Assembly (NCBI GenBank): GCA_963971405.1
Contig: OZ020485.1
Coordinates: 5,952,001 to 6,016,000 of the forward strand
DNA: 64,000 nt
Reading direction: 5' to 3'
DNA from: Psococerastis gibbosa
Taxonomy: Eukaryota > Arthropoda > Insecta > Psocodea > Psocidae
Shown: positions 15,976-49,760 of the stretch, one piece after another
Layout of the letters: the number at the start of each line of letters is the position of its first letter
Numbering within the stretch: the first letter of the stretch is position 1
Position numbers and translations under genes: made by a program
Notes under the pieces: model-generated
The model's database searches: none
The model's input: the letters and a program-made list of their open reading frames with translations, nothing else
What the model was told of the DNA's origin: nothing

Positions 15976-16059
15976 TTAATTGCAAATAGGAAGTCTGTCG
16001 TGCCTATTGTTATAATAGAATATGTATGCCATATAGCAGGTATGATGGTAAACCAGACT

Positions 16060-28853: not shown

Positions 28854-29039
28854 TCAAACAGTTCCAGCAACTATATATTGGCAGATATCTCTAGCCTCTG
28901 CCACAAGTGCTGCAAGATCATTGAAGTCAGCGTTTATATGTTCAGGGTCCAATAATGCTACGGTCATAATCATCGCAAAGGGTCCCATGACGTCCGCTGC
29001 CACGTCTGGCTGAACTGCGTTGAATTTTATTACAGCACC
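28854..29039 (-). CDS. Gene 1 exon 4 (C-terminus)
   Basis: 61 codons plus TGA, GAVIKFNAVQPDVAADVMGP and onward; acceptor tttatcag. This is the only intact copy of the C-terminal exon in the window. Confidence 0.78.
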   Translation of the reverse strand, partial: GAVIKFNAVQPDVAADVMGPFAMIMTVALLDPEHINADFNDLAALVAEARDICQYIVAGTV

Positions 29040-32000
29040 CTGATAAAAATGACAAGTAGAGACCGTCAATATTACCGTACCATACACAACAGAATTAACA
29101 ACAGAGTGACGGACACAAATGTTTGGCCTTCCACGAACAAAATACGTAATAGAGTAGTTTATTGTTATCATAATAATAAACTACGGTATAGTACGTAGAT
29201 TTCTTTAAAAAAAATAAAATAAAATAAAAACTGTGAAACCAATACAATTTATTGTGCACACTACACATGTGTACGTGCCAACGGCAATACCGAGTAGAAT
29301 ACATCAGACCAGAGCCTGTACAAAAATGCAGCAAACTTGGTATTGTGCACTACGTTGGTAAGGGAACATAGAGGGACGTGATAACGCGCTGAAACAACCT
29401 GTCAGCCTAAGTGAGTGAGTCCTGTACTCCTGGTCACCTTCCAATGATCCCAACGCGCCTTTCTTGGCTTTGTGGCACCGGTTATTAGAAGAATGTGAAA
29501 TGTTATTTTAGTTAAATACACGTATTATTATTAATTAATCTTGCGACTTAACAGTGTTCCCCAAGTGGTTCGAAATCCACTATTATCAGGAGGTATGCCT
29601 TGTATTGTAGTTTCTGTTGATTATATGCCCTTGGTCCGTAGAGTAACGGATGAAGGAAAAAAAAAATCCACCTTATCAGCTAACATCCCGTCACCCTGAG
29701 TTGAAGGAGTCTGCCCTTAGGGTACCTCAAGTTAAGAAAAGTAGAAATGCTAAAAGCAGACTTTGGAAAACAAACAAATAAACCCGTTGATGTGCGATGA
29801 GAAAATTTTGTAAGTGTTATAACTGATGTTTTTAATATCTAGATTAACTTCGTTAATATAGGGCCAAGATGGCGGCCAGAGAAATTGGAAAATCGGCCAT
29901 TTACACTCAGAAATGAAATCGCGCGCTTGCTCTCTATTGTTGCAACATAGCCATATTAACTAAAATAGGTCTATAGGCTGAGTAGGCTACAATTAGTTTA
30001 ATTTTCCGTCACGAGAAAGTTTCACTAACCTTTTTCACGGGGCAAGTTTTTTGACCAAAACGGTTGATCAACCAGCTGAAAGGGTCTCCTTTTTTATCAA
30101 GATTGTTGCAAAGGTTTTTTTCAGCAGCTGCCGGATCTGAGGGTTCAATAAGCCCTACGACAATCCCCTGTCACAGAAAGATAAGATTAGAATCGAGCAA
30201 CAGGCACAATACCATAATTACAAATTAGTACCTATAAAATATATTAATAATAATAACATATACCTAATATAATAAGTACAATTATAAAAAACATTCAACA
30301 TCAATCCTAAATAGTTCTATATCCCAAATACGTGAATATCTTTAAAAGACAGCCAGCATCTGGTTACACATTTCCTTATGGCACATAGGGTGCTGAACTA
30401 AAAGTCATATTTTTGCGTCCCCAATTTTGTTATTGTTAATTTTGAGGAAATTGTTTTGGTTGTTTCGGGGTTAACCCCCCATCAATAATAATTCTCTTAA
30501 CTTATAATATACCTATATCAAATTCTATCGAGTCGTTTGGCCGCATATCAATGTAGAAACTGACTGACAGACATTACGTAAAAAACCTTTATTTGCATTT
30601 TTGAGACTTCAAAATTAAATCCGAAATGTGAAATTTGTGAGGAAGGTTAGGTAGTTATTTCCTTGTGTACGTACCGCCAAGACGCCTTCAATATCAGTCC
30701 CCAAAGTCATATTTCCGTAAAGGGCTCCGTTTTTTGGTTCAACGTGACAGTCTAGGAAACACGCGGCTTCATCATCTCCCGGAGGGATTTGGGTAAATGA
30801 AAAAACTTTCATCTGAAAAAGAACCGGTCCGAGTTTATTGGAACATTCTTTCCAATTAATAAATTAGTAGATAGAGAAAATGAGTAATATCATAGCAAAT
30901 AATTTTCTTATTGTTAAATTTCGGATATCTCGGGGGAAGGGGAGGGGGTCCATCTGACGTGACGTCAATGGAGGTGAGGCAACCTCAATATATTTAAAAA
31001 ATCCTTAAAACTCCATTCTAATGTACGCTGCAACCATTTTTATCCCCTATCCCCAATCACTGAATTAATCAATGGCATCGCATATTCTAGATCGGGCAGA
31101 ACAATACACTACCACACAGTAATAATGGCAGGGCACGCAATGCATTTGAGCGTGAATTTTCATCATTTTTTAAAAAAATTACTTTTTTGCAGAAGACCAA
31201 ATATTTCTATGCGAAAGCAACCTGTCAGGTCTTGTTACTCAATTTTTCACCTAAAACATGCCTGAAGGTAGAAATCATCGATAGAACGGTTCCGCAGAAA
31301 AATTATTTTTTAGTCATTTTGCATGAAAATTTAGTTATTTTTATTTTTTACACCAGGAGTGGCGGCGCTAGAAATTTTAAGGTGGGGGCCATGGGGGGGG
31401 GGGGGCATGACTTCTATCTAGGGTGGCCAATGAAAAAACAAAACATTTTTCATTGGGTAGTAGCATTGACGTAAATTCCCAAAATAACTGGGGGGAGGGG
31501 GGCTTTAGGACCCTAAGACTTTGATTCATTACTCATTCACTGCTGAAGTCTGCCCAGCAAATATTATGACTTCATTATTATTTAAATTTTCTTTTTTTAA
31601 ATGTGTATGAAATACCATTGAATATATAACAGGAAAGAAAATTGGTAAATTAATGGGCCCAAATTAGTGAGGTTTTGTGAAAGTTATACTCTGGGAAGAG
31701 GGGGGTTCCGGGGGTCCCTACCGGTGAAAAAAATTAAGAAATAGGCCTAAATTAGGGAGGATTTACGGATTTTGCAAGAAGTACAGTTGATATTTTACCG
31801 ACGAATAAACCTGCCACTCATGGGGTCCCGGGGGTCTCCCCCGGAGAAAAAGTTTGAAAAAATAGGTCAGAAGTATTGGGGTTTTAAGCATTTTGAGTAG
31901 GTAATTTATTTTTGTGAAAGTAATTAGTCGCCAATATGTTCATTTTTTTCATGATGTCTTTCATGTGAAATAGGCAATAATTAATTTCCCTTTCGATATT

Positions 32001-34536
32001 GTGGATACATAATCTCTTTGTCACCAGAACTCCCGGGGGATGCTTCGGGTGCCCTATCTACGCCAATGGGGAGTAGGCATACCTTAATGGAAGTAAGTAA
32101 ATTGTTACCAAGGACTTGCACATGAACAAATACAAGTATCCCCCCTTAGACAACACTGACGGCAGTAACACAAGAACAGCAACAAGCAGCCCATACAGGA
32201 CAATTATAAGACTATGAACCACGGACGAACTCCACAAATTACTTTATGAATTAGGTAAGCTATATTTAGGTATTGAGTGCTACCCTCGCACGCCGCTGGC
32301 ATGAGGGGACACTTCAACTGTATTTGTACTTGGAAAAATTGTTTTAAGAAAAATAGACGGTTATTTATTTATTTATTTTATACCAGTTGTGTCGGACTTT
32401 TTTGAATTACAATAATTCTTCAATTTAATAAAATTTCAAATATCTCAAAAGTGGGGGGGCCGGAAAAATTGTTGGGGGCCAGCCCCCCGGGCGCCCCCAC
32501 TGACCCCCAGAAGTAAACTATCAAGGGGCAAGCGACCCCCCGCATTTTATTAGTATTAATAACAACTACAATATACAATACATAGGCCTACGTTAATTTA
32601 AAAGAGATCTTTGGAGCCGTTTTTGAGAAATAATTTTTTTAGACGTTTTTTTGGAGTTTTTAGAGAGTTAGCCCAAAATAAAAATAAAAGTCCCGAGGTA
32701 TGATTTTTGTGAACCTACATGACACATATCATCAAAATGTAACGAGTAGGCCTAGTTTGCCTCAAAATCGATGAACAGACAGAGCGACAGACAGACATTT
32801 CGTAAAATCGTAACAACTACTTTTTTGGGTTCCTGGGACCTCAAAACTTGTAAAACTGTTGAAATCTGGGAATCGAAAATTTTGACCATCACAAAGCTTT
32901 CCTTAGGCTCTCTGGACACGATGCGTTTTTCCCAAGCGTTCTAGGTGCGTTTTACCAAGGTCAAAACGCACAGTTTTAACGCAGTGAAAGGCACAATATA
33001 CGATGCGTTTTTCCGCCATTTTTGTTTATTGTTATTTTTGCTTAAAAATACAATGCAAAACTAATTTTTGAACATGCCTAGACCAAAAGGAAGAAGAAGA
33101 AAAGACTATATTTGTTGCAATGCTCCTAATTCTACAGATGAAGCTCGAAGAAGAGCAACGACACGATAAACAATGAGTTAAATCACGATTTTTACTAAAT
33201 CGGTACGATTACTCTCATGTTAGACTTATTAAGGAGCTACAGTTAATGCCAAGTTATTTTTTATCATTTTGTTAAAATAATTGGAATGTTTCGTGTGCCA
33301 GTGGCACGGAAATGACTCAAACGCATCGACAAATTCAGACAAAATATCTTGTTGTAGTTGCTCCGCCATTTTTAGTAGCAAAATAGCATGGATTTAGTGT
33401 TTGTCATGTTGCCCGCCTAACCGACAACTGACGAGAAAACGCAATTAAACGCAAGAAATCGGTTCATTTCGAATTCCAAATAGCGCGTCCAAGCGTTTTA
33501 CCGGTGCGTTTTCTCACTGGGTGCCGTGTATATGCACGTTAAAACGCAACGCTTTTCCTAAACGCTTGGGAAAAACGCATCGTGTCCAGAGAGCCTTATA
33601 CTATTTATAATTTGGAAAGCAACAAAAATCAAATCTACTAGACAATCACTAGAGAATAGGCCATCGAGGAGTATGACGCGAGTATGGCACGTCGTAAAGT
33701 GGGAACAAGCAACATATGGACATGGACAGCTGTGAAGTTGCGATGCATCTTATGAAAAGCAACGCGAGGATTCAGGCAGAGATTTAGTCAACCAACGAAG
33801 AAAAAAACTTTTTTACGGAAGTAATTAATTCTTCGTTCCACAGCCGCAATGAAAATAAACAAATAAGTTTGATAAAAACTGCAAGCTTTCTCAAAACTTA
33901 GACTATCTACGTCTTCTCTTCCAATTACATCAACCCTATTGTAAAAATAAGTATACGCACATTATCGTGTAAGCAGGGCATTAATATTTTAGTGAGAAAA
34001 TGGAAAGTTCTTACGAAAGTTTGTATTTTTCTTGAATTTTTCATCTGAACATATCATTGAGACTGCCGAACGAGGAATTAAATAATTTGGTCGAAAAAAC
34101 CAGGTCGCTATTTTTTTTCAAAATGTTTAGGAATGTCAGCCTTAACGACACTAGGCTATATATCATACCTAATACAAGGCGAGAAGGAAAATAAATTGAC
34201 CGTCATCACACTGTTAAACTTTCACTAATAAACTATAGTCCAGTTGGCAATCACTCAACTAAACCCAAAATTTCAAAGTTTTCCCAGATACTTAGGCGTG
34301 TTCAATGGACAGTTTAAAGAAAATCGTTTGAGCCAATGTGAAAATGATTGGGTCCGTTCCCCTAACAAGCAAAGTAATCGTTTTCTTTTTGCGATCAGCG
34401 TCAGCAGAGGATTTTTAAAACAGTTCCAACCAAATTGAAACGAAATCGTTCCAGTAGTTTGGGCTCTAACTCTGTGCTCACAGAAAAACAGCACACACCT
34501 ATACACGTACCGCACATACATACTCCACCCTCAAAA

Positions 34537-34567
<31 letters not shown>

Positions 34568-35188
34568 GACTCTCAAGACCTCAAGGAACTTGTAGATAAC
34601 CCTGCAAGTGACTAGTAAAATAATTTACAGGGAATATTAGGCTGATAAACGATATATGCTGCGAATATGCGACACAATACAATACAATTGACTTTATTAT
34701 TTCCATTTCAAATTATACCACACTGCCCGCGTGCAGCTTACAATTGACAAAAAAACGTCTAACCAATAATAATTATTAAGGCATCGCATATCAGCACGTG
34801 TTGTCTAGTCTAATAGGTATTTAAATCGTCATGACGAAAGGGCTTATTTTGGCTTAGTTGTGTGTGGTGAAATGTAAAATATACTAGTACTTTAGCCCCA
34901 CTCTACTTGTGTCTTTTATTACTTTTATTTATGTAATTGTAAAAGTGAACTAGAAAATTAAATTGAACATAAGCCGATGCCAAATTATAACGCCATGGGG
35001 AATGATTCTAAGTGGGACATTAGAAAAAACAGAAATAAATTTTATATGGCCTTGGGGGCGTTAGGGATGGTTAATTTACTCAACATTTTTGGCTTACTAC
35101 TGCATATGGCTCTTACCTTTTTAGTATTTGCTCCAACGCTGGCAATAACCAGGAAGCTGGCGACAACTGAAACCCAGGCACGGTGCAT
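28854..35188 (-). CDS. Gene 1: small secreted protein, possibly GM2-activator/MD-2-like lipid binding
   Basis: Four exons: 35188-35117, 30812-30675, 30167-30030, 29039-28854. All joins are in phase 0, giving 177 residues plus TGA. Residues 1-20 (MHRAWVSVVASFLVIASVGA) form a clear signal peptide, so the product enters the secretory pathway. The mature part has five cysteines (ACFLDC, NLCNN, KTCPVKKG, RDICQ) and no membrane helix. Size, a Gly/Asn-rich strand-like stretch (YGNMTLGTDI) and a late CPxKKG block resemble insect GM2-AP/DUF1091/MD-2-related secreted proteins, which bind lipids. That family call is inference. An odorant-binding protein was considered because of C-X3-C, but the remaining cysteine spacing does not fit. 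The exon set is supported by an independent duplicate gene at 40-48 kb. Introns are full of repeats. Confidence 0.72.
29365..29775 (-). repeat. R2 repeat copy 3 in gene 1 intron 3
   Basis: GTGATAACGCGCTGAAACAA, TCCTGGTCACCTTCC, CCAAGTGGTTCGAAATCCAC and GAGTCTGCCCTTAGGGTACC in reverse orientation. Confidence 0.6.
30030..30167 (-). CDS. Gene 1 exon 3
   Basis: 46 codons, GIVVGLIEPSDPAAAEKNLC to KTCPVKK. Acceptor gtgacag, donor gttagt. The duplicate exon at 40988-40851 has the same length, phase and splice sites. Confidence 0.82.
30675..30812 (-). CDS. Gene 1 exon 2
   Basis: 46 codons, MKVFSFTQIPPGDDEAACFL and onward; donor gtacgt. The acceptor tttttcag sits directly against the end of an R1 repeat (from 30820), so nearly all of the upstream splice signal lies in transposon DNA. 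Confidence 0.8.
31357..32502. mobile_element. hAT-like element inserted in R1
   Basis: Ends are (G)AGTGGCGGCGC and GCGCCCCCACTG. It is flanked by degenerate copies of ACCCCCAG (31350-31356 and 32503-32510), and R1 sequence continues on both sides. It holds several G-runs and no convincing ORF. Confidence 0.6.
32906..33595. mobile_element. PIF/Harbinger-type MITE, 690 bp, TTA target duplication
   Basis: Inverted termini GGCTCTCTGGACACGATGCG and onward, matching over about 35 bp, flanked by TTA at 32903-32905 and 33596-33598. Removing it and one TTA restores the R1 sequence found in other copies, so the insertion point is certain. No transposase is visible inside. Confidence 0.88.
33625..35116. 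other. Gene 1 intron 1, no exon found
   Basis: Contains a block (33640-33790) matching 47090-47245 in gene 2 intron 1, and a T-run of about 27 at 34541-34567. The matching block carries indels that break every frame, so I do not call it an exon. Confidence 0.5.
35117..35188 (-). CDS. Gene 1 exon 1 (signal peptide)
   Basis: 24 codons from ATG 35188, with donor gtaaga at 35116. It is preceded 64 bp upstream by a TATA box. The hydrophobic core SVVASFLVIASVGA is identical in the duplicate at 47853-47782. Confidence 0.8.
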
Positions 35189-35251
35189 GGTATATTCGAG
35201 ATTTTATTAACAGTAGAAGCTGATGTATTGAATAGCTGTGGAAAACGCTCG

Positions 35252-35260
35252 CTTTATATA
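35252..35260 (-). promoter_or_regulatory. TATA box of gene 1
   Basis: TATATAAAG on the minus strand, 64 bp before the ATG. It is conserved in position in gene 2 (TTTATAAAG at 47926-47918), and a further conserved block lies upstream (35304-35345 against 47973-48013). Confidence 0.6.
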
Positions 35261-35946
35261 TGAGCCCGGCAGAGGGGCATTCCCCCACCAACAAATATTA
35301 AGAGTTGAGCTTCATCATAATTATGGTTCCAACCTGACAATAATAATTACCGTTCACAATTTGCGGTTTTTGACATAGGTCACTCGGCACCAGCTTTAAC
35401 CACATTTTTTCCACAATATTCGGGGTACTTCTTTAAGCCTTTCCAGGTTACACAATTCTCAACTCCGATAGTTGAAGGTCCAAGTAGGCTGTACCATAAC
35501 ATAGCCACTCAACAACTCAACAACTGCTATACTTTAACGGCGCCTGTCCTGAGGTCCTCCCCCGCTTTCCTTTCAAGGGACATCCTCGGTCGTCTAAAGC
35601 AGGCCATACACGGTGCGTCCAAATGGACGTACGTCCAAAATCTGGCAGAAATCGCATCGTGTATGGGGAAACCCGACTGGACGTAGTGGACGGAAGCGAC
35701 CAAGATGGATTTCCAAATCTTTTGATCTCCACGTCCATGCGTCCATTCCGTCCATTTAGTGGTCGTACCGTGTATGTGCCTTTACTTTTTAGCCTGCGTC
35801 CATTTTTCCATGCGTCCACTCCGTCCATTTAGTGGTCGTACCGTGTATGGGGAAACTGTAAGTCCAAATGGACGCGGACCCACCGTGTATGTGCATTTCT
35901 ACGTCCAAACTGCAATCAGTCGTGGGTCAGCTACCGTGGAGTAAAC

Positions 35947-36126
35947 ATGGGAACTAAAGGCCATGACTTTGTATTGGAAGTGATTGAGAAATACCGGGGG
36001 CACGAATACCTTTGGCAAATTACTAATGACAGTCATCATGACAAAGGGAAAAGGGGCTTGGCATGGGATGACATGCCCTCATTTTTCAAATTGTGCTATA
36101 GGCCCCACACAACCAACGGTCGATGA
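35947..36126 (+). pseudogene. MADF/Myb-like companion protein of the Harbinger element, truncated
   Basis: A 59-codon ORF, MGTKGHDFVLEVIEKYRGHE then LWQ and GLAWDDM. The spacing of LIE..R....LW and AW..M is that of the MADF DNA-binding domain (usual length ~80-90). The last residues run into the inserted MITE, so the domain is cut. Confidence 0.55.
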
Positions 36127-36462
36127 AATTTACTGCAACCGGAATTTTTCCCCTTATGGAGATTTGACACAGTCTCGGTGAAAATCGAGTGACGTGCCCA
36201 GGGGGGTGGCCCATAGGGTCCGGACCCCCCCCCCCCCCCGAAATAAATTTTTGTATGTAAACCTGTAGGGTTTGGAGAATTAATCCATTAATAGCCTACA
36301 TTACGTAAAAAAACATTTCGGACCCCCCCCCCCCCCCCCCGAAATCAAAACCTGGGCACGGCCTTGGTCGGCGTGGTTGTATTTTCTATGCTACATCTCC
36401 ATAAGGAAAAAAAATATCCGTTTCCAGTAAATTTCACAGACAGTTGGTTATGCGGACCCTTA
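36093..36462. mobile_element. MITE inserted in the Harbinger element
   Basis: Outer arms share AACCAAC..GAAATTTACTG..CCTTATGGAGAT in inverse at 36105-36165 and 36400-36460. The centre contains two C-runs of about 16-18 bases and CCAGG/CCTGGGCAC ends. Confidence 0.5.
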
Positions 36463-36517
36463 AAATTTTCAATTTCAACTTGTAGGACCTGTACCTGCTA
36501 AAAAGTAATTTGCATTC

Positions 36518-36799
36518 TCACACATTAATACCTAAATAAGCAGGACGCATATTTACCTTCATGTAATCTTTAAGGCACCGCAAAATTGCCATACATGTCT
36601 CTGGTATTATGTGCCCCAATGCTTGCGGTGAAATGGCTGCTGGAAATTTCAATTCTTCATAAGAACATCCAGTTGCTAAGTACCTCAATGTTGCACTTAA
36701 TCTCTCATGTGGAGTAATAGCTTGTCTCATGTTAGTAAATATTTTTAATATATGTGGCGTAACCATTTTGAGCAACATTAAATAGGTTGATTCATCCAT
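36518..36799 (-). pseudogene. Harbinger transposase fragment (HARBI1-like)
   Basis: 93 residues with MDESTYLMLLKMVTPHI, then TNMRQAI.P.ERLS.TLRYLATG, then PETCMAI. These are the conserved N-terminal blocks that precede the DDE domain in PIF/Harbinger transposases. No catalytic residues are present in the piece. Confidence 0.8.
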
Positions 36800-37640
36800 T
36801 CTGAGGTAATTATTTCAGTCAGAAGGCTCCAAAGTGAGTTGTTCTATGAAATTCAAGTGACTGATATCCCTCCTTCTTGAAAGCCAACCTTTCTGCCACT
36901 TCTTTTTTTAATGTATATACAAACTGGTGCAGCGTACAGTAGTTGCAATTCATCCATAATATAAATGTACAGGTATACAAACACACAACCAGAAGACAAC
37001 AGCTGGTAGACTGATCGTAAGTTTTTTAGCTCCCGTGTATGGGCTCCTAAATGTGTATGGGCTCCTAAATTGGACGTACCGTGTATGGGGGCCATTATAG
37101 GCCTTGGGCCCTCCACCAGCCACTCAACAACTGTCCCAAACAAGCGCCATTTCCCATCAGGTCTCATTACACACTAAGTCGCATAAACTAGTTATCTGCA
37201 AATTAAAATAGTTAAATTAAAAAAACTTATAATAACTTAAGAAAAAAGTCAAGTGTATCGGATTTTGGGAGGTGTACGACGACATTTCTCTTTTTAGAAA
37301 ACTGGTATATTATATTGTACATGCATTTTTCGGGTGTGTAATGAAGAATTACTTAATTCGTAGAAATGGCATATTTGTTTCAAAACTATTTTAAAATCTC
37401 AGCCTTAACACCCTCCAAGCTATTGTCAGCAGTCATGGCAAAGACTTTATATGGAACTGGAAAGGGGATTGTTACTTTTACACTGTGTAATGAATGTGAT
37501 GATGATGTGTTATGAGAGGATATGGGGGAAGAGGAGAGATGTGGGCGAAAAGCAAAGGGGGCGCTTTCCTCAGGACATAAAAGAAATTAAACAAAGATAC
37601 CAGGGGCGGCGGAATAACAACATGATGGATGCTTGCTGTT

Positions 37641-37660
37641 AGGTTAGGTTAGGTTGGTCA
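37641..37660 (+). repeat. Interstitial (TTAGG)n
   Basis: Three TTAGG units and part of a fourth, the canonical insect telomere motif. Short runs also occur at 52405 (CCTAA) and 54322. The copy at 37641 is missing in the matching place of unit 2 (~48727). Confidence 0.6.
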
Positions 37661-37834
37661 CTTCACAGAGAACAACAAAACTTGGGAGGATAATCTATGC
37701 AAGAAACTTTAGAGAAAGGGAACATAAACTTCAAAATAGCATCTGGGCCCAATATTTAGTTGTCTCTAATGTTTTAATTTATACGCATGTTTTTTATTTA
37801 TGCGTATTTCAATGATACACGCCACAAAGAGAGT

Positions 37835-38135
37835 GGCGTATAGGTAGAAATGATGAGCTCTAGGCGATATACCAAGTACCTACGATAGTAGCTGAAATCA
37901 AGGGAGGCCGCATCAGGTGGTTAGGCCACGTGGGACGAATGCCAGACAATAGAGCAACAAGAGCAGCTTTACAGGTACCCAAGGGAGAAGACGAGTGGGA
38001 CGGCCACGGATGTGATGGCTGGATGACGTCGAGGTGGATCTGGCGGCCCTTGGTTTCACTGACAAGGGAAGAAGAGCACAGAACCACATGTGGCAGACCA
38101 GGCCAAGGCCCTTCACGGGAGTAAGTAAGCAAGTA
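37835..38135 (+). pseudogene. LINE 3' end fragment
   Basis: Reads YQVPTIVAEIKGGRIRWLGH, then VGRMPDNRATRAALQ, with frameshifts before a GTAAGTAAGCAAGTAA tail, similar to the tail at 62584. Confidence 0.75.
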
Positions 38136-38689
38136 ATTTTCTAATACCTGAATTTTATTATATCTTCTGAAAAACTGAATATTTAATTTGTATTTATCAA
38201 ATTTATTAGAAATATTGACGCAGACTATGATCTATAATTAATATCATTTGGAAAGATAATTCTGGGCGATACAAAATACTGATATCGAATACTCCTTCAG
38301 CATCCAAAAGTACGTACGATTTAGGTAAATTAACTTTAAGCTTTTACAACAAAAAAATTCGCTTGCCACCATTTGTCCTAGTGTTAGGTATATAAAATTC
38401 GCAAATATCATTAAATTAATGGTGGGTTGACATGATCTGCGACAACAAAATAACTCGCTAATGACATTAGAGACTGTCAGGTCATTTAAATAACAAATCA
38501 CTACCTTCCTGTACCTAATAACTTAATTAGTAATAGGGCAACAATATACTCTACCTACTCATTCATTCGACGAATTAAACGCAAACGAATTAAAATCATG
38601 AAAGCTATGTTACAGAAGAGGTGAGTAGCCTTCTAATGCATTTTAATAATTCCATTGTAAATAATTATCTTACGATTACATTTCGGTTG

Positions 38690-38959: not shown

Positions 38960-38990
<31 letters not shown>

Positions 38991-40258
38991 GAAACTTCTT
39001 TATCGACGTAGGGAGAAAATCTTCGTTACGGGCCATCTTGTTACGCTCCATCCTTATTTCTGTACTCATGGATGACGCTCATTTTTGGGCAGATATAGAC
39101 GGCCTATCTCAATTTAAATTATACCCATGTCTTCGTCTATTCTTCCTCTTTCAGGCCATGCTATATTTGTTGTGATAGGGCAAGGGGTTTGACTTTGGGG
39201 GGAGGAAACGTGAGGAGGTGCGCCCAAATTTGGCCAGAATTTGCCGATTTTCATCGAAAATAGGCCTTTTTCGGAAGCGTTTTTGGAGGTGTTAATATCA
39301 ATTTGAAAACTTCAAACTACTTTAGTTCTTTTCCACCTTTCTTACTCTTTCCAGACATATATATTCAGTTTTACTATCCGTCTCTTCATTCAGGCTCAGG
39401 TGAGTTGGTAAGCCATCACTGTTTCGTCGGAAAACAGGTTCAAAGGGTACATTTGAATTTACGTGCATAGAGTAAAAAAATTCCACAGCCTGCAATTTTC
39501 AACCGAAATTAATTTTTAATGTCTTATTAGAAGCAGTATGCTATATTTGTGGTGATCAAGCAAGGGGTTTGGCTTTGGGGGGTGTGAAACGTCAGGGGGT
39601 ACGCACGATTTTCAACAAAAATAGGCCTCTTTCAAACTACTTAAGGGCTTTTCTACATTTCTTTCTCTTTCCAGCCATATATTATGTAAGTGAAATTTAG
39701 GTGTGGTCGCGTTAAACTCTCGTCTGTAAACCGACTTTACTACCGACTTACAGACAGCCAATATAATTAATGAAATGCTATTATAACCTTAGCAACAATA
39801 AGATGAAATAATTGAATCATTTGTATACATGTTTCTAATAATAAAGCCTTTTGCTTAAAATTTATCTAATTTAGCTTTACATAACCAATTTCTGTAAATT
39901 TGTAAATACGTATACATTGTAGATCATTTTTTCGAAAAATGATGTCATAAGGAAGTTTCACTTTTTACGTGTGTACAATGATACACGCACGCTAATTTTT
40001 TAAATATCAATAACAATTTTACAATATAGCCTATCTGAATTTAAAGAAAATAGTTGTAATCGATTTTGAGAAAAAAAAATTATCGTTTTTTCTACATGTT
40101 TTTGGAGTGTAAAACACCCCAAAATGGAGTTAGGCCAAAATACAAACTATTTCTGGAATATGATCATTGTGAACCTATATGCTAATTATTGCTAAAATTC
40201 ATCAAAATCCACTGAGTAGTTTGCTCGACGAACAGACAGAGAAATCGACAGACATTTG
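38690..40258 (+). repeat. R1 repeat copy 7, interrupted, entering gene 2 exon 4
   Basis: R1-like from about 38690 to 38960 and again 39995-40258, where it stops in the GACAGACATTT motif inside gene 2's last exon. The middle, 38960-39995, is foreign, starts with a T-run and contains an internal duplication (~39170-39360 and ~39545-39690). Confidence 0.7.
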
Positions 40259-40299
40259 GTCTGGTCTGGCTGAACTCCGTTGAATTGTAACACAGTGCC
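40192..40299 (-). pseudogene. Gene 2 exon 4, truncated and fused to R1 repeat
   Basis: The first ~14 codons are homologous to gene 1 exon 4. The rest is the antisense of R1's gacagacattt/gaacagacagag region. Ends in TAG. Acceptor ttttaag replaces ttatcag. Confidence 0.7.
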
Positions 40300-40850
40300 C
40301 TTAAAATTAGAATTAGAGATCACGAATATTACAATTCGAACCATAAAAAACAGAGAGACGGACGCTAATGTTTGGCCTTCCAAGAACAAAATAAGTAATT
40401 GCGTAGTTTATTGCTGTCGTAATTAACGGGCCCCATATGTTCACGGATTTATCATGAAGAAAAATTGTGAAATACACTTACTTTACTAGATTTCTTTAAA
40501 AAAGGAGAGACTGTGAATGCAAAAAATGCACGTGACATATGTACATGGCCTATACCGTACCTATGAATGTGCGTGTGAAAATGTTGTAAGTTTTATAACA
40601 TAACTGATTTAGACCAAACATGATATTGTTTTCAATAACGAGATTAACTTCGGTTATATATGGCCAAGATGGCGGCCAGTGAAATTGGAAAAATCTATCA
40701 TTTACAATCAGAAATGAATTTGCGCGCCTGCCTTCGATAGCGGCAAATAGCTCTCTGATGTTGCAACATAGCCATATTAACTAAACTAAGCCTATTGGCT
40801 GAGTAGGCTACAATTAATTTAATTTTCCGTCACGAGAAAGTTTCACTAAC

Positions 40851-40988
40851 CTTTTTCACGGGGCAAGTTTTTTGACCAAAACGGTTGATCAACCAGCTGA
40901 AACGTTGTCCTTCTTTATCAAGCTCGTTGCAAAAGTTTTTTTCTGCTTTTGCCGGATCTTTAGTTTCAACAAGCCCTATGACAACGCC
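40851..40988 (-). CDS. Gene 2 exon 3
   Basis: 46 codons, GVVIGLVETKDPAKAEKNFC to KTCPVKK, open throughout. Most changes from gene 1 keep the frame and are conservative, which suggests past selection. Confidence 0.75.
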
Positions 40989-41094
40989 CTGTCACAGAAT
41001 GATAAGATTAGTATCGAGGAACACGTGCATTACCATATAATTACAAAGGCTCTCACGGTCGGAGTTAAGCGATGAAGCAGAGATAAATAATTGT

Positions 41095-41345
41095 CTTAGG
41101 GTTAAATTTCGGCTTCCTCGATTTTCTCTATCCTGAACATTAACCTGTTCGGTTGCTTTATTTAGCACCATAGGCCTAGCTGAAGCTAGAAAGCATTGAT
41201 TAAAGGTTCCTCGGGTAAAATTTATTTATTTTAGTCATTTTTTATCAAGGGCACCCTAGTGCGTTTTTCTCATTTTTATAAAGTCTACAATATAGGTATG
41301 CAAATATAAAAAATAGTAAGTAGCCTACCGTTTTTGAGGGAATCA
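41095..41345 (+). repeat. R1-like fragment in gene 2 intron 2
   Basis: Diverged R1 middle section (GGGTTAAATTTCGG, CCTGTTCGG, GAAAGCATTGAT, TTTTAGTCATTTTT). Confidence 0.5.
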
Positions 41346-41521
41346 ACCAAGTATGTTATCGAAAATATTACTATTGGACAATAATTTTGTTAACCTACTG
41401 ATCTACAAGCCAAATGCCATGAAATTACATTGATTAACTTCGCCTCAAATTGAGGTACAAACTGACAGATATTTATTAAATATGTGAGGAACGGTAGACA
41501 GTTATTTATTTGCATACATAC

Positions 41522-41659
41522 CGACAAGACGCCATCAATATCGTTGGACAATGTGAAATTTCCGTAAAGGGCTCCGTTTTTTGGTTCCACATGACCCTCT
41601 AGGAAACACGCAACTACATCATCACCCGGAGGAATTTGGGTAAATGAAAAAACTTTCAT
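41522..41659 (-). CDS. Gene 2 exon 2
   Basis: 46 codons with MKVFSFTQIPPGDDVVACFL. Acceptor atttttcag, donor gtatgt. The second Cys of the C-X3-C motif is replaced by Gly. Confidence 0.75.
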
Positions 41660-41769
41660 CTGAAAAATAACACCCAAAGCTACTAGAAAATTTATACAGA
41701 CACACAGAATCAACTACTCAGTAGTGCTTCCAGTTATAAAAAGTTTCTATAACCCGTGAGTACAAGAGT

Positions 41770-41940
41770 AACTAAGAGAAAAGACGCTGAACTGGTGGGG
41801 ATACGTACTAGAGACGAAAACCACCTAGTCAAAAGAGTAATGCACCAAGAGATACAATGAAGAAGACCACCAGGGAGGCTTAAAGTTACACTAAGTAAGT
41901 AGTAGTAGTAGTAGTAGTAAGTAATATTTTCTATATTCTA
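41770..41940 (+). pseudogene. LINE C-terminal scrap with AGT microsatellite tail
   Basis: LNWWGYVLETKTT-type frame then DENHLVKRVMHQEIQ and GRLKVTL, ending in a (GTA)n run at 41897-41918. Lies in gene 2 intron 1 beside the BEL element. Confidence 0.45.
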
Positions 41941-42048
41941 TAACACATAGACGATCGTCAAATGCCCTTGTGTACGGTATTTAAGTAGCTTGACTGAAAA
42001 AAAACCCCGCTCTATGGCACCATTTCATTAATATTAGAGCAACATTTC

Positions 42049-42250
42049 TGTCAAGAATGTTTAGATTTTGGTCTGTGTTTATTTGATCTGTGGTCTTTTA
42101 GAGATTCGTCTCTGTGGTTTTTGGCTGAGCGCGTGTTTTTTATTAAATGGAGTCGAATAAATAAATGATTTTTAAAACGGAAAACTGATTTGTAATAACG
42201 AAGTTAGTTAGTTAATAGTTATTATTATTAGCTATTAGTTTTTCGGAACA
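42049..42250 (+). repeat. BEL/Pao 5' LTR
   Basis: Starts TGTCAAGAATG, ends TTTCGGAACA. Lacks the 17-bp GTCTGTGG-containing duplication found in the 3' LTR. Confidence 0.93.
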
Positions 42251-45200
42251 TGGCGACCGTGAAAATTGGCGGTGAGTTTGAGAATAGTGCAAATTGTCAG
42301 ATGTTGGTGCAGTTGAAGGCCAAGCGTAAAGTAATTCGCGGCCATTTAACCAAGGCCTGTAATGTTTCGCCAATTACTTCAAAATCAGTGTCTTCAGCCA
42401 AGGATAAGGCTACGAGGCTTTTTGAAGTTGAAGAGGACATTCAGAACTTGTTATTGCAAGAAAATTTGTCAGAGGAATTTGCAGAGGAGGCAGATAAAGC
42501 TGAAGAATATCGAGATGTGTTCCTAGCTTATTTATCTGACTTAGACGAGGCCCATGTTTCTGTGCCTGCGTCATTGAGTGCTGGTTCGGCGATTGAGGAG
42601 AGGCCTGCAACAACCATGAAGTACCCAGACTTGAAGCTTACTATTTTCAATGGTGATCCTCAAAATTGGGTTAACTTTGGGGCAACTTTTGAGAATATTC
42701 ATCTGGATGAGCGGTTGAGAGATGGACAAAAACTTCAGTATCGAAGGCAGAGTGTTATCGACGAGGCAAAGACGGCTGTGTTTAGTTTTCCTCCGTCGGC
42801 AGAGAATTATCCGAAGGCTGTGGACTATTTAAAGCAGAGATTTGGCCGACCGAACCTCTTGATTAATATTTATGTTCGAGAGCTCATGCAAATTACATTG
42901 CCGAAGGAAAGCAGGGATCTCGGCAATTTGTACGACAATCTCCGGACGAGACTGCGTGCTCTAGAGACATTAGGAATCAAAAGCGAGGAATTTGCAGCCG
43001 TGATGTGTCCTATGGTAGAGTCAGCGTTGCCCCAGGATATTTTACGTGCGTTTGAACGCAAAAGGCAAGGTAACCGAGTTGATTCTGATGATTTTAGCAA
43101 GCAGTTGCAAGATCTTATGGATTTTGTTCAAGTTGAAGTAGAGGCGGAGCAAAGGTTAAAAATTGCTGCTCAGAGCATCACAAATGATTCAGAAATGTGT
43201 CCCCAAGCTGTAATTCCGTCCGCTGCAGTACTCCACAGTTCTGCTGTAAATTTAAAGTGCGTGTTTTGCTCTAAGAAGCACCAAAGTAAAGATTGCTTCA
43301 AAGCTAAAAAGAATATGTCACATGGAGAGAAAATTAAGGCTATACAAAACGGTGGTTGTTGTTTTAGATGCTTAGAGCAATCTCACCGAGTAAAATTCTG
43401 CGCTCGTAGTGACATTACATGCAAAATAAGTTCTAAGAAGCACTACACCTTCTTGTGTCGGGATAGTCAAGAAAACGTTACGCCCAAAGAAGACAAGAAG
43501 TCTCCAGATGTAAAGTCAGGGAATAGTTACTGCGTGATAACGCCGAGTGTTGTTTTACTACAAACCATTAATGTGAAGATTGGAAAAAACCTAATTATTC
43601 GAGCTGTTTTAGACACGGGGTCCGATCGCTCGTATATCAGCAAGGAGATGGTAGCCAAGATCCGAGCCACTCAGTGTGGTACAGAAACTATTAAACATGG
43701 GATATTTGGAGGGGCTGAGACCCGCGCCACAACTCATGGGCGGTTTTCTATTGTCATTGAAAGCACGGACAAGAGTTATAAAAATACTTTTTGTCTGTTG
43801 GACCAAGAAACAATTTGCTGCACAATTCCCAAGTTGCGCGATCGGGAGTTAGAGAAAAAACTGGTGGAAAAGGGCATTGAGATTAGTGACACATTACCAG
43901 GCTCAGATGTCATTTACATTCTTTTTGGCATGGACCACATCCCGAAGATAACCATGTGCGAAAGAGTGAAAATCAGCGATAACTTACTAGCTGAGAGGAC
44001 GTCCTTTGGTTGGACAATAATGGGTGTAGTAGCGGAGGCAAATAATTCACTCATGTCAACTAATTTGTTCAATCTGATGGAGAAAAGTCAAGCTCTGGCC
44101 AATTTGTGGGAACTTGATACGCTTGGAATCAAGGACCCTATTGAAGTTGTGGACAAGGAACGGCACGTTGACCAGTTTTTTAAGGAGAATATTCGAGTGA
44201 ACGAAGGTGGCCGTTATACGGTTCGCTTACCATTCAAAGAAGGGCATCCTGAGTTAGTTTGTAATATCCATACTGTAAAAGGGCAATTGAACGGTGTTGT
44301 ACAGACTCTTTCGAAGAAGCAAGTTCGAAGCCAGTATGACAAAGTAATGACCGATTGGATTGCGGAGGGCATAATCAAAAAGGTGACAGAGGACAGTGAA
44401 GATGGGTATTTTCTACCACATTTCCCTGTAATTCGAGAAGCAAGTGAAACATTCAAAGTGAGACCTGTTTTTAACGGCAGTATGCTAGATTCCAATGGCA
44501 ACTGTTTGAACAAGTGTCTTGAAACTGGACCGAATCTTATTGAAAAGATACCCGACATTTTAAATCGTTTTCGATGGAAGGCAGTCGGAGTAATTTCAGA
44601 CATTAGGCAGGCGTTCCTTCAAATTTGTGTTACTGAAGAGGATCGTCAATTGTTGAAATTTTTATGGTTTAATGAAGAAGGGGACGTTGTGACTTGTCAA
44701 CATTGCAGAGTGGTGTTTGGTCTGGGGCCAAGTCCTTTTTTGTTGCAAGCCACTATACACCATCATCTTGAAGCAAGAGAAGGCACTAGAAGATTCGCGA
44801 GCGAGCTCAAGGATTCATTCTACGTGAACAATAGTGTCACAAGCTTGGATAATGAACAGGAGGCTACAGAGTTCATTGTACAAGCAACAGAAATGATGCA
44901 AGAAGGGAAGTTTGACTTGAGAGGTTGGCGGAAGACTGGCGAGAAATCCAAGGAAGGCGAAAAGGATAGTGTTGGCCTTTTGGGACTTGTTTGGCAACCA
45001 CTCAGTGACGTCATACAAGTCAATGTCAGTCGCATTTTTGAACTCAAGCAGTGTAAAATAACCAAGAGAAGTGTTTTATTTTGTGCTCAGCGAGTGTTTG
45101 ACCCAATCGGTGCGACGAGTCCAGTTATGCTTATACCTAAGCTAATCTTGCAAGAAACATGGACCCAGAAGGTGACATGGGACGAGATGTTGCCCGAGGA

Positions 45201-46815
45201 CTTGGCAAAGAGGTTTGTCAAGTGGCACGAGCAATGTTCTCATCTTCGAGACCTGAAAATTCCGAGATGGGTGAGGCAGCATGCGAATGATGTCGTTTCA
45301 TTGCATACTTTCTCCGATGCGTCCAAGTATGTTGGGTGGATATTACGATTCTATAACAACATGCAAAAGAAGCAAACTAAAATTTATGGACCATTATCAC
45401 ACGAAGAGTATAAGGTGGCGAGAGAATGGATGCTACGCTTCATGCAAGCAGATAGTTTTAATGAAAAAGACGATAGACTGCAGGGTTATGATATAACTTT
45501 AAAGGACAATATTATGAGAGTTAAAACAAGACTGACACCTATTGAAACGGATGATTTCTTTAAATGTCCTATTCTACTTGATGGGAAACATGAACCTACC
45601 AAAAAACTCATCTTAGAGACGCACAAATCAAACATGCACACTGGAGTAGGCATGACTTTGAGTATTCTGCGAGAAGAATTTTGGATTTGGCGTGGAAGGC
45701 AGAATGTGAAGCAAGTTTTGAAGAGTTGTGCAGTTTGTAGAATTCACAAGGCTAAGAAGACCAATGTAAAAGAAAGCAGCCTACCTATGACCCGGGTGTC
45801 ACTTGAAGCTCCCTTCGAGACAACGGGACTTGACCTGGCTGGGCCAATAATGACTGTTGAAGGAAAGTGTTGGATTGTTTTGTACACATGTGCCGTGTGC
45901 CGAGCAGTACATTTAGATGTTGTGCAGTCTTTGTCATCTGCTGCTCTTTTGACAAGCCTTCGTCGATTTATTGCACTGAGAGGCAGGCCGAAAATTATTT
46001 ATTCGGACTGTGGCACGAACATAGTGGGACTAAAAAATTCTATTAGTGACGTCAATGGGACAGAAACCCCGATTGAACGGAAGAATAGCCCGCCAAAAGC
46101 GCCCTGGTGGGGAGGATTCTACGAACGCCTTATTGGAATTTTAAAGGGGCTTTTGAGGAAAACATTGGGAACTGCACTAGTCACCCAAGAGGAACTGGTA
46201 ACGCTGGCCATGGAGAGTGCAGCTGTGATGAACCAACGCCCATTAACCTATCTACTTGAGGATCCGAAGGACTTGGAGGCGATAACCCCAAACTTCTTCA
46301 TGCAGCCGTTAAGGAATCTTATGACACATAAAGATATAGAAGAGGCTGAAGAGAGTCTAAACGAGAGAGGGAAACACCTGAATCAGTTGCGAGAAGCCTT
46401 AGCTACAAGGTTTAAAAATGAGTACCTGGGATTTTTACGAGCAAAGCACACAGGAGTAACCAAATCGGACATTCTACGAGTAGGTGATTTAGTTGTTATA
46501 GAAGGCCCTGAAAAGAGCAAAGCATTTTGGAAACTGGGACGAATTTTGGAGATCAAGGTGAGCAGAGACGGCCGGGAAAGAGCGGCACGCTTAAAAACGA
46601 CAAATGGAGAGATATGGAGAGCATATCAGAAACTGTATCTTCTCGAGGGAAGTTCTAGCGCCGGGAAAGAAGAGCAGCATACGAAAGAAGAGGAAGAGGT
46701 CGAAGATTGCGTTTTCGGCACGGAGACAGAAACAAGAAGTAAAGCAGGCAGAGCTATCCGACCGCCCCAGCGGCTCAACCTTCTTGGGGTGGGAGTGTCA
46801 AGAAAGAATGTTTAG
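42250..46815 (+). CDS. BEL/Pao gag-pol polyprotein, open but catalytically damaged
   Basis: One 1521-residue ORF. Domains in order: DUF1759 gag region (~120-290); two Cys/His clusters (CVFCSKKHQSKDC, CCFRCLEQSHRVKFC, ~335-385); aspartic protease with LDTGSDRSYIS (Asp ~455); reverse transcriptase with SDIRQAFLQI (Asp ~784), but the YVDD box reads YVNN (~858-861); the start of RNase H (LHTFSDAS, ~1018), after which most of that domain is missing; integrase with zinc site (H..H, CAVC) and D, D-X38-E (~1195, 1251, 1290; SDCGTN, WWGGFYERL); a DUF5641-type tail (GDLVVIEGP, KLGRILEI). The stop lies in the 3' LTR. It is shorter than the ~1700-1800 residues usual for the family, in line with the RNase H loss. 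It cannot copy itself as it stands, if the YVNN reading is right. Confidence 0.93.
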   Translation: MATVKIGGEFENSANCQMLVQLKAKRKVIRGHLTKACNVSPITSKSVSSAKDKATRLFEVEEDIQNLLLQENLSEEFAEEADKAEEYRDVFLAYLSDLDEAHVSVPASLSAGSAIEERPATTMKYPDLKLTIFNGDPQNWVNFGATFENIHLDERLRDGQKLQYRRQSVIDEAKTAVFSFPPSAENYPKAVDYLKQRFGRPNLLINIYVRELMQITLPKESRDLGNLYDNLRTRLRALETLGIKSEEFAAVMCPMVESALPQDILRAFERKRQGNRVDSDDFSKQLQDLMDFVQVEVEAEQRLKIAAQSITNDSEMCPQAVIPSAAVLHSSAVNLKCVFCSKKHQSKDCFKAKKNMSHGEKIKAIQNGGCCFRCLEQSHRVKFCARSDITCKISSKKHYTFLCRDSQENVTPKEDKKSPDVKSGNSYCVITPSVVLLQTINVKIGKNLIIRAVLDTGSDRSYISKEMVAKIRATQCGTETIKHGIFGGAETRATTHGRFSIVIESTDKSYKNTFCLLDQETICCTIPKLRDRELEKKLVEKGIEISDTLPGSDVIYILFGMDHIPKITMCERVKISDNLLAERTSFGWTIMGVVAEANNSLMSTNLFNLMEKSQALANLWELDTLGIKDPIEVVDKERHVDQFFKENIRVNEGGRYTVRLPFKEGHPELVCNIHTVKGQLNGVVQTLSKKQVRSQYDKVMTDWIAEGIIKKVTEDSEDGYFLPHFPVIREASETFKVRPVFNGSMLDSNGNCLNKCLETGPNLIEKIPDILNRFRWKAVGVISDIRQAFLQICVTEEDRQLLKFLWFNEEGDVVTCQHCRVVFGLGPSPFLLQATIHHHLEAREGTRRFASELKDSFYVNNSVTSLDNEQEATEFIVQATEMMQEGKFDLRGWRKTGEKSKEGEKDSVGLLGLVWQPLSDVIQVNVSRIFELKQCKITKRSVLFCAQRVFDPIGATSPVMLIPKLILQETWTQKVTWDEMLPEDLAKRFVKWHEQCSHLRDLKIPRWVRQHANDVVSLHTFSDASKYVGWILRFYNNMQKKQTKIYGPLSHEEYKVAREWMLRFMQADSFNEKDDRLQGYDITLKDNIMRVKTRLTPIETDDFFKCPILLDGKHEPTKKLILETHKSNMHTGVGMTLSILREEFWIWRGRQNVKQVLKSCAVCRIHKAKKTNVKESSLPMTRVSLEAPFETTGLDLAGPIMTVEGKCWIVLYTCAVCRAVHLDVVQSLSSAALLTSLRRFIALRGRPKIIYSDCGTNIVGLKNSISDVNGTETPIERKNSPPKAPWWGGFYERLIGILKGLLRKTLGTALVTQEELVTLAMESAAVMNQRPLTYLLEDPKDLEAITPNFFMQPLRNLMTHKDIEEAEESLNERGKHLNQLREALATRFKNEYLGFLRAKHTGVTKSDILRVGDLVVIEGPEKSKAFWKLGRILEIKVSRDGRERAARLKTTNGEIWRAYQKLYLLEGSSSAGKEEQHTKEEEEVEDCVFGTETETRSKAGRAIRPPQRLNLLGVGVSRKNV
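42251..42262 (+). other. Primer-binding site, tRNA-Arg type
   Basis: TGGCGACCGTGA directly after the 5' LTR. It matches the 3' end of an arginine tRNA, a primer used by many insect LTR elements. The polyprotein ATG overlaps the LTR/PBS junction. Confidence 0.7.
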
Positions 46816-47018
46816 ATTTTGGTCTGTGTTTATTTGATCTGTGGTCTATTTGGGTCTGTGGTCTTTTAGAGATTCGTCTCTGTGGTTTTTGGCTGAGCGC
46901 GTGTTTTTTATTAAATGGAGTCGAATAAATAAATGATTTTTAAAACGGAAAACTGATTTGTAATAACGAAGTTAGTTAGTTAATAGTTATTATTATTAGT
47001 TATTCGTTTTTCGGAACA
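46796..47018 (+). repeat. BEL/Pao 3' LTR
   Basis: Starts TGTCAAGAAAGAATG, ends TTTCGGAACA. It contains the last codons and stop of the polyprotein ORF. Confidence 0.93.
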
Positions 47019-47234
47019 ATTTCTCTTCAAGACGTAGAGGTAGACGTATTACTGGTACATTAATGTAGGGCGAAAGTTACCAGAACTATGACTGACAGAT
47101 AATAGGTCATCGAGGAGAATGACACGAGCATGGAGCGTCGTAAAAGTGGGAACAACCTGCATATGGACATGGACAGCTGTGAATTGCAATGCAATGCATC
47201 TTACAAAAAGCAACGCGAGAATCAAGGCAGAGAG

Positions 47235-47765
47235 TTTAAAATATTTTGTCGGGACATGATAACGCGCTGAGACAACCTGTCAGTCAAAGTGCGTGTCGAG
47301 TCCTGGTCACCTCCGAATTAATCGTGTGACTTTACTATGTTCGGTGGTTAGCCGGCCGCCTAACCAAGTTGAATCCAGCGGACCAGAGCAGGTTCAAAGA
47401 TGCAGATAACTTGGTAGTGTGCACAGTGCCGGTAGGGAAACATGGTAGGACTTGTCCTGGTCACCTCCGAACTAATCGTGTGACTTCACTGTGTTTCCCA
47501 AGTGGTTCGGAATCCACTATAACCAGGAGGCCCCTGTCCTATGGGCCCACACCGTGACCTGGGACTATGTCCATCCATACTACTACTATGTTCGGTGGTT
47601 CGGAATCCACTATAATGAGGAGGTCTACCCTGTCAGTCACTCCCCTGCTCCCTAGGAGTCTGCCCTTAGGGTGCCTCAAGTTAATAAACAGACTCACTCC
47701 GCCGCCAGGCTGAAAGGGTTGCTTAAAGCAGAAATACTGAAAGCAGGCGTTGGAAAACAAGACAA
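47235..47765 (-). repeat. R2 repeat copy 4 in gene 2 intron 1, internally duplicated
   Basis: Contains TCCTGGTCACCTCCGAA twice and GTGGTTCGGAATCCACTATA twice, then GAGTCTGCCCTTAGGGTGCC. Ends just beside exon 1 of gene 2. Confidence 0.65.
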
Positions 47766-47781
47766 AACAAGGGATCGTTAC

Positions 47782-47853
47782 CTTCCTCATCTCTGCTCCA
47801 ACGCTGGCAATAACCAGGAAGCTGGCGACAACTGAAACCCAGGCACGGCGCAT
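47782..47853 (-). CDS. Gene 2 exon 1 (signal peptide)
   Basis: MRRAWVSVVASFLVIASVGA then EMRK. It is 24 codons like gene 1, with donor gtaacg, weaker than gtaaga in gene 1. An R2 repeat ends about 20 bp into the intron. Confidence 0.75.
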
Positions 47854-47917
47854 GGTGTACTCGTATATTTTTTTAACAACAGAAGCTAATGTACTGAAGA
47901 GCTGTGGAAAATTTTCG

Positions 47918-47926
47918 CTTTATAAA
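47918..47926 (-). promoter_or_regulatory. TATA box of gene 2
   Basis: TTTATAAAG on the minus strand, 65 bp before the ATG. It sits in the same context as gene 1 (GGGCTCAT then TATA then AGCGA), so the core promoter was duplicated with the gene. Confidence 0.55.
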
Positions 47927-48890
47927 TGAGCCCGGCAGAGGGGCATCCATTCCCTCACCTACAAATATTAAGGTTGAGCTTCATCATAATTATGGTTCCA
48001 ACCTGACAATAATCATTTCCGGACACGATTTGCGGTTTTTGGCATAGGTCACTCGGCACCAGCTTTTTAGCTTCAACCTGATGTTCCCTATGATATTCGG
48101 GGTATTACTACCAGTATATTATAGGTACAGTACATTTGTGCCCTTTTCCTTATCGCTTTGGGAACTTGAGGGACTTCAACCCTTTCCAGGTTACACATTT
48201 CTTAACTCCGTTAGTTGAAGGTCCGAGTAGGCTGTATCATAGCATAGACACTCAACAACCGCCCCGCACAATTGCCAATTCACATCAGATATAACGTATT
48301 CGACAGGTTTTAGGCAATCTCTAGCATGTACACAGTGATTGAGACCATTTACACGGCAGAAGTAATGTTCTCGGACTGCAGCAGAGTGTTAAAGGACAAT
48401 ATTTCCAGGAAAAAACCCCGTATTAAGAGGAGATGGCAGCTAGACAAAAAATATGGGTACATAACTACATACATATATGCACGGTTCTTTTTTAAGAAGT
48501 TATTATGAATCTTTTAAAACGTAATTAGCTTAAGTTGCAGATAACTAGTATATAAATCAGAACAGATATTTTAATTTATTATTATTTTATTTATTAATTT
48601 TAATTTATTCGTAAAAGATACAGTACTTTTATATTAATTAATTATTAATTATTAGTTTCATATAAATTTATTGTGGTTGAATATTGCTGTGGAATACCTT
48701 ATCTACATGATGGATGATTGCTGTTGGTCATTTCACAGGGAACAACAAAACTTTTTTCTTTAGTTTTTAATTTTTATTCATAATTTTTTTTTAGAAATAT
48801 TGACGTGTAACTATAGAAATAATTAGATTACTCGTGACTTCGTGGTATTTCATTTTAATAAACCAAAAACAAAAACTTAGGAGTTTTAGA

Positions 48891-49137
48891 AAAACTTGTT
48901 ATAACAACCCGAATTAGTAAAACCCAAATAATCGTTAATGCATTTGCATCTTCTCCTCGAGTTGAGCAAGTCTCAAATTGCAGATAAGGTGTAACTGTAG
49001 TGGGTTTCCCTCTGTAGATGGCAGTTCTTGCCGAAAGCGCTCAGAATTTTATACTAACACAAGTGGGTTTCTTAGACAAAGTTAATTTCTTAACGATTAT
49101 TTGGGTTTTACTAATTCGGGTTGTTATAACAAGTTTT
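48891..49137. mobile_element. Element with perfect 48-bp inverted termini
   Basis: Arms 48891-48938 and 49090-49137 are exact inverse copies (starting AAAACTTGTTATAACAACCC). It is absent from the matching part of the first duplication unit near 37.7 kb, so it arrived after the duplication or was lost from the other copy. Confidence 0.75.
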
Positions 49138-49760
49138 TTCTTTATGTGTAACTGTAGCCTATAATGAATACCATATTGGGAGAAAATTGTGGGTGATACG
49201 AAAACTGATATGGAATAATCTTTCAGCACCCAAAAGTACATGAGATTTAGGTAACATAAAAATACCTTTAAAAAAAATTTCCGTTGGCCACTCAAATGTA
49301 TGTGTCCTTGTGTTAATTAGGATTATGTTCGCAAACATAATTAAATTAATAATGGGTTGACATGATCTGCGTCAGCAAAATAATTCACAAATGGCATTGG
49401 AGACTGCCGGGTCGTTTAAACAACAAATCACTACCTTCCTGTACCTAATAACTTAATTAGTGTTAGGACAACAATATACTCTACCTACTCATTCATTCCA
49501 TGCAAAAGAATCGAAATCATCAAGGCTATGTTACTGATGAGGTGAATAGCCTACTAATGCGTTTTCAGGAATTTGTGAATAAAGACGAAACCGACTACCA
49601 GCCACAAGCTAAATAATGGTTGCACTTACCTTCAACATGTTTTGAATAACATTACTATTATTGTTTTAAACATAATAACGATAGTATTCGCAATTAATAT
49701 ATATTGCTTGCTATAGTGTTAAAATAATGAGAGCGTCTACAGACATGTGAAGAAAATGTC

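Follow-up and report, generated by a model that had tools for sequence, protein, structure and literature searches.

The window analysed here, a 64-kb stretch of contig C2 (C2:5952001-6016000) from a genome of 409 Mb in 68 contigs to which C14 and C19 also belong, contains an old and lopsided segmental tandem duplication of one host gene. Unit A carries a gene of four exons, delimited by comparison, the copy in unit B is truncated in its last exon, and paralogues of the gene are found on C14 and C19. Taking the evidence together, we consider it fairly probable that copy A is working, that copy B is a duplicate probably in decay, and that the gene encodes a secreted protein related to DUF1091, for which a carrier fold and a ligand can be proposed.

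Tandem units and gene structure

Comparison of the two halves of the region with each other revealed seven main collinear same-strand blocks, 74-90% identical and with E-values down to 1e-128, which link 29004-38644 (unit A) to 40264-49565 (unit B) head-to-tail in one orientation. These positions, taken from the re-aligned collinear blocks, are the outer edges of DNA homology, and the left edge of unit B lies inside exon 4 of its gene. The two head-to-tail units of ~10 kb proposed by the initial annotation are thus borne out. Lesser collinear matches sit between the main blocks, and there are also off-diagonal matches that are chiefly dispersed repeats. The flanking blocks that the annotation had described as shared are likewise present, with 38232-38644 upstream of copy A 78.7% identical to 49159-49565 upstream of copy B. 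A genome search with 38380-38644, a 265-base part of this outermost block, returned two matches at E up to 0.001, which are units A and B themselves; in a more local comparison, C14 carries weak matches of 90-120 bases to parts of the block pair, 74-77% identical and some of them inverted.

Counted in the seven main blocks, which are the better-conserved part of the units, and with gap columns and the tail of copy B excluded, the divergence between A and B is 14.5% in noncoding and 13.3% in coding DNA (p 0.62 for the difference). Synonymous divergence over exons 2-4 is 0.22, and the duplication is accordingly old, as had been claimed. Gaps are distributed differently: the 384 coding bases have none, whereas 15 fall in the 1272 bases of noncoding DNA (Fisher p 0.03). 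A and B do not differ at all over 85 bases (29997-30081) that span the end of exon 3 and the start of intron 3 (P 0.0003 if differences were placed at random), which hints at a candidate gene conversion or at local constraint. Scans of the 64-kb window for Rfam families (gathering thresholds) and tRNAs found nothing.

In both units the minus strand carries the gene, a point that the initial annotation had left unstated, and the comparison of the copies predicts four exons with AG acceptors, GT donors and phase-0 introns throughout. In copy A, exon 1 (35117-35188) encodes 24 aa that resemble a signal peptide by hydropathy, exon 2 (30675-30812) 46 aa, exon 3 (30030-30167) 46 aa ending in CPVKK ahead of a phase-0 donor, and exon 4 (28857-29039) 61 aa, followed by a stop at 28854-28856. 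The product of 177 aa (24+46+46+61) is the 177-residue protein of the initial annotation, and its N-terminus is hydrophobic. Exons 1-3 of copy B, on the same strand at 47782-47853, 41522-41659 and 40851-40988, have the same lengths as those of copy A (72, 138 and 138 nt), the same phase 0 and the same GT/AG sites. TATA-like boxes, also on the minus strand, are present in both copies as claimed (35252-35260 in A, 47918-47926 in B) and begin 72 and 73 nt ahead of the ATG, and the promoter block is kept in the C14 relatives too. The annotation had assigned the same four exons, with equal lengths, phases and splice sites, to both units and had relied on the paired comparison for telling exons from noise; this holds for exons 1-3, whereas copy B keeps only 12 of the 61 codons of exon 4, so that exon 4 of copy A is confirmed not by B but by two C14 paralogues, to both of which it aligns over nearly its full length (E 2e-15 each). 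The C14 relatives share exon 4 of A as well as part of its 3' flank, and A is therefore taken as the ancestral form. Three cysteines are invariant in 6/6 rows of the family alignment, and a fourth is shared wherever a row includes exon 4. A conserved block between exons 1 and 2 (33651-33785) was also considered as an additional exon and was rejected, as it differs in length between A and B and has no common open frame.

As the annotation had stated, the two units differ in their transposons. Intron 1 of copy B contains a BEL/Pao retrotransposon with an uninterrupted plus-strand open frame of 1521 aa (42250-46815), bounded by direct terminal repeats (42053-42250 and 46804-47018) that differ by 2 mismatches and 17 gap positions in 215 columns. 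Judged by this frame and these terminal repeats, the element (42053-47018) was probably inserted recently. In intron 1 of copy A, the insertion is instead a dispersed repeat whose copy is split. One dispersed repeat is present in copies ~70-88% alike at 793-1423, 9759-10601, 13063-13697, 23983-24838 and 30818-32905; the last of these starts at the sixth base past exon 2 of A, on the acceptor side, where it may provide some of the splicing signals of that exon. Elsewhere in the window, 14299-14710 and 15575-15979 are 93% identical as a direct repeat and 82% as an inverted repeat, and each copy seems to be palindromic.

Truncation and fate of copy B

The initial annotation described a pair of small secreted-protein genes, a description that fits copy A and fails for copy B, which is truncated at its 3' end and continues into a repeat-derived tail. 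Homology between A and B in exon 4 halts after 12 codons (40264-40299, minus strand), and the frame of B then runs on through 23 aa of repeat DNA (40195-40263, minus strand) to a stop. The repeat is old and is itself cut internally where it meets exon 4. It is also found several times in the window and on C2, C14 and C19, and the piece 39990-40263 has at least 39 further genomic places, 70-76% identical, among 40 scored of 2161 candidates. The possibility that exon 4 of B is a variant real exon was rejected on these grounds, namely the matches of the tail to dispersed repeats on C2, C14 and C19 and in at least 39 further places. Because both C14 genes share exon 4 of A, copy B is the damaged copy.

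The remaining coding sequence of B shows neither a stop nor an indel across 384 bases, which argues for constraint at least for a time. Changes were also polarised by C14, using only sites at which C14a and C14b do not differ; the A branch then has 7 synonymous and 11 nonsynonymous changes, the B branch 3 and 11. These counts, small as they are, fit a copy that was once constrained and is now drifting, and B has most likely lost its function or is on the way to losing it. An unlikely but conceivable alternative is that both copies work and that the repeat-derived tail of B has been exonised as a new C-terminus, so that the protein would have 151 aa and gain a cysteine at residue 132. Such a reading would draw on the promoter, splice sites, open exons 1-3 and four cysteines that B has kept, and on the excess of indels in noncoding DNA over none in coding DNA reported above. 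However, most of exon 4 is missing from B, including a conserved cysteine that is still present in the C14 genes and in the C19 pair; the changes on the B branch look neutral, and, if the indel rate is halved to represent a single branch, zero indels in B would be expected by chance 10% of the time. We regard as very improbable a further view, in which A and B form one compound gene. Copy B is upstream in the direction of transcription and has its own promoter and exons 1-3 with no proper 3' end; since every intron is in phase 0, read-through transcripts could splice exon 3 of B in frame to exon 4 of A. If true, this would account for exons 1-3 of B having stayed open, and the duplication would have created a cassette of promoter plus domain that can be switched and that uses a common last exon.

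For the origin of the truncation, the DNA between the units (38645-40263) is informative. This spacer consists of two dispersed-repeat pieces (38646-38954 and 39995-40260) around a 1040-base stretch (38955-39994) with internal direct repeats, which matches only itself when compared with 234 kb of the same genome. Truncation of B at or near the duplication breakpoint is tentatively favoured, because the repeat piece is more diverged from its relatives than A is from B and the missing exon was not found nearby. A later cut, in which B was complete after the duplication and then lost its end by insertion of a repeat and a deletion, is a serious contender, if somewhat short of an even chance, and is compatible with a working A and a decaying B. 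The repeat is severed internally at the junction, as a deletion would do, and it adjoins the right end of unit A and not that of unit B, so it arrived on one side only. Against this, the repeat piece differs by ~24-30% from its best-scoring matches elsewhere in the genome versus 14.5% between A and B, which makes a fresh insertion unlikely, and no trace of the remainder of exon 4 or of the 3' flank of A was found in the spacer. Unequal crossing-over mediated by the repeat was rejected, as neither the 1.5 kb to the left of unit A nor the 1.9 kb to the right of unit B showed a copy of it.

Paralogues and family kinship

Searches with the window protein and its relatives identified at least two related genes on C14 and at least three on C19, these counts being lower bounds because only the best candidates were followed. 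The two C14 genes (C14a and C14b) are ~11 kb apart within duplicated DNA. Two of the C19 genes, at 28200-28207 kb and 28220-28227 kb, form a tandem duplication with ~20 kb spacing and 80-84% DNA identity. In an unrooted tree of the mature proteins, A and B group together with a support of 82, the C14 genes with 93 and the C19 pair with 100, and the third C19 gene (C19c) falls outside the pair. As the tree pairs neighbours, either the three loci were duplicated independently or neighbouring copies have been homogenised. Over exons 2-4, synonymous divergence is 0.21 for the C14 pair and 0.14 for the C19 pair, beside the 0.22 of A and B. Pairwise dN/dS over the same exons, with wide bootstrap intervals, is 0.62 (0.33-1.31) for A and B, 0.77 (0.47-1.27) for the C14 pair and 1.44 (0.83-2.78) for the C19 pair. 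Between the C2 and C14 loci it is 0.42-0.57 and none of the four intervals extends to 1, which points to purifying selection on the family over the longer term. Exon 4 of the C19 pair (C19:28200237-28200461 and 28220021-28220245) differs by ~36 nonsynonymous and 3-4 synonymous changes, an excess with an uncorrected p of 0.01-0.025, picked from 12 exon comparisons, and positive selection on this exon is possible.

ML, DUF1091, GM2-AP and PBP/GOBP had been put forward in the initial annotation as candidate families for the 177-residue product. No Pfam family reaches its cut-off: the scan of A and B gave no match, and the sub-threshold matches in the family are to ML (E 0.067-0.18) and DUF3860 (E 0.25-0.27, C14a included). 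PBP/GOBP (PF01395) was rejected, with no match for any family protein scanned; the genome has PBP/GOBP exons elsewhere (6 matches) and insect odorant-receptor exons (6 matches), a content by which it is taken to be that of an insect. Sequence matches in the PDB to a protease (E 0.12 and 0.34) and a decarboxylase (E 1.1) were taken as chance, and a PDB search with the family alignment found no match. DUF1091 is retained as a distant relative: among the families proposed, the best supported assignment is to a divergent relative of DUF1091 that is not itself a Pfam member. What links the two is the shared position of the intron between exons 3 and 4 and the likeness of their profiles, no scanned member being over a Pfam cut-off.

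The DUF1091 genes used in this comparison are from the same genome. With PF06477 (Pfam cut-off 25 bits), a genome search at E up to 10 gave four places, none of which is one of the present loci; one exon was at the cut-off, and its gene served as the query for further exons. This yielded 44 matches (E up to 10), of which 27 have E <=0.001 and 42 are on C2 and C14, and DUF1091-type genes look largely expanded in this insect. Two of the genes, once spliced, match PF06477 at 1e-8 and 1.1e-9. In 12/12 fetched DUF1091-type exons (one with V for C), a phase-0 GT donor follows exactly three codons past the CP position. The same rule, derived from these own-genome genes, is obeyed by 6/6 family genes of the codon set, namely A, B, the C14 pair and the C19 pair (one with CS for CP). 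DUF1091-type arrays are located at C2:22.66-22.80 Mb and C14:41.36-41.52 Mb (L052-L074), separate from the loci of the present family.

In other respects, the two groups are partly alike. The own-genome DUF1091 genes are also small, with a hydrophobic start in the one gene read whole (L052), their central exon also ends three codons past CP with phase-0 introns on both sides, and the last exon opens with G in 6/10 of those read and in 5/6 of the family. In contrast, the family has a separate signal exon, which in L052 is joined to exon 2, its last exon carries a C-terminal conserved cysteine, and its central exon is 46 aa long versus 54-56 aa in DUF1091. For the profile comparison, the DUF1091 profile comprised 12 rows (6 with exon 4, the pairing of exons 3 and 4 in 5 being by nearness only), of which 2 are genes verified against PF06477 and the others were found by similarity to one of them; L054 and the four exon-4-only loci L071-L074 were left out. 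The hhalign score between the family and this profile was 24.2, reached by 0/300 column shuffles, a fraction that differs from a database E-value in that shuffling splits neighbouring conserved columns. Several results stand against the kinship with DUF1091. The hhalign probability is 16.6%, the yardstick comparison of ML with the DUF1091 profile (score 17.6) was itself reached by 4/150 shuffles, PF06477 has no match at E up to 10 in A, B, C14a, C14b, C19a, C19b or C19c and its genome search passes over these loci, and C19c breaks the intron rule, reading TCQQVPD ahead of the donor.

The protein could instead be a divergent member of the ML/NPC2 family unrelated to DUF1091, which we think improbable. 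Members of ML/NPC2/Der p 2 (PF02221) are secreted, as is predicted for the present family, and there is a weak local match near the CP motif; ML is also the best sub-threshold match in Pfam, with E 0.18 and 12.6 bits for C14a and E 0.093 and 13.5 bits for C19a in its corrected model (14.0 with the faulty one), and none for A and B. These scores are nevertheless under the cut-off of 22.7 bits, the seven places at which PF02221 matched the genome (E up to 10) include none of these loci, and the ML profile score of 16.6 was reached by 15/300 shuffles. Intron positions differ as well, since 4/5 own-genome ML loci have no intron at the CP position and the fifth changes frame just past it. The ML domain has six conserved cysteines in three bridges, a set that the family lacks, with its four family-wide cysteines. 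DUF1091 resembles ML according to a Pfam note, and we take the two to be related; they may form one superfamily, in which case assignment to ML would differ mostly in rank from kinship with DUF1091.

Predicted product and its biological meaning

With DUF1091 kept as the closer relative, the gene would encode a small secreted protein with four family-wide cysteines, its lineage being a relative of the genome's own DUF1091 genes. This kinship makes an MD-2/ML-type beta-sandwich the most likely fold, the MD-2 type being immunoglobulin-like with a hydrophobic pocket, and the protein may carry a lipid or another hydrophobic ligand outside cells; it is the hydrophobic N-terminus, small size, four cysteines and kinship together that suggest a secreted beta-sandwich carrier. 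Copy B keeps the promoter and exons 1-3 and, with its exon 4 cut after 12 codons and fused to the truncated old repeat between the units, is probably decaying or without function.

One role that such a protein might have is illustrated by the Drosophila CheB proteins, a family of secreted proteins from at least 12 fly genes that were proposed to be relatives of the GM2 activator; CheB42a can be secreted, and the full-length protein modifies an ion channel (PMC2827562). The authors of that study state that their data gave the GM2-activator idea no support, and secreted CheB42a alone was without effect on channel currents (PMC2827562). What the present family would share with these CheB/GM2-activator-like proteins is its predicted secretion. 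An MD-2-related protein is reported to be needed for reproduction and integument in an insect (PMC8670961).

These data describe ordinary evolution and a familiar kind of biology. The genes appear to form a divergent, fast-changing branch with kinship to an insect protein family whose role is unknown, and this branch grows by tandem duplication at three separate loci, the pairs being broadly similar in age (synonymous divergence 0.14-0.22); in one pair, amino-acid changes may accumulate in the last exon more quickly than silent ones. Should the proposed carrier role hold, the genes would be candidates for species-specific chemical signalling or lipid transport.
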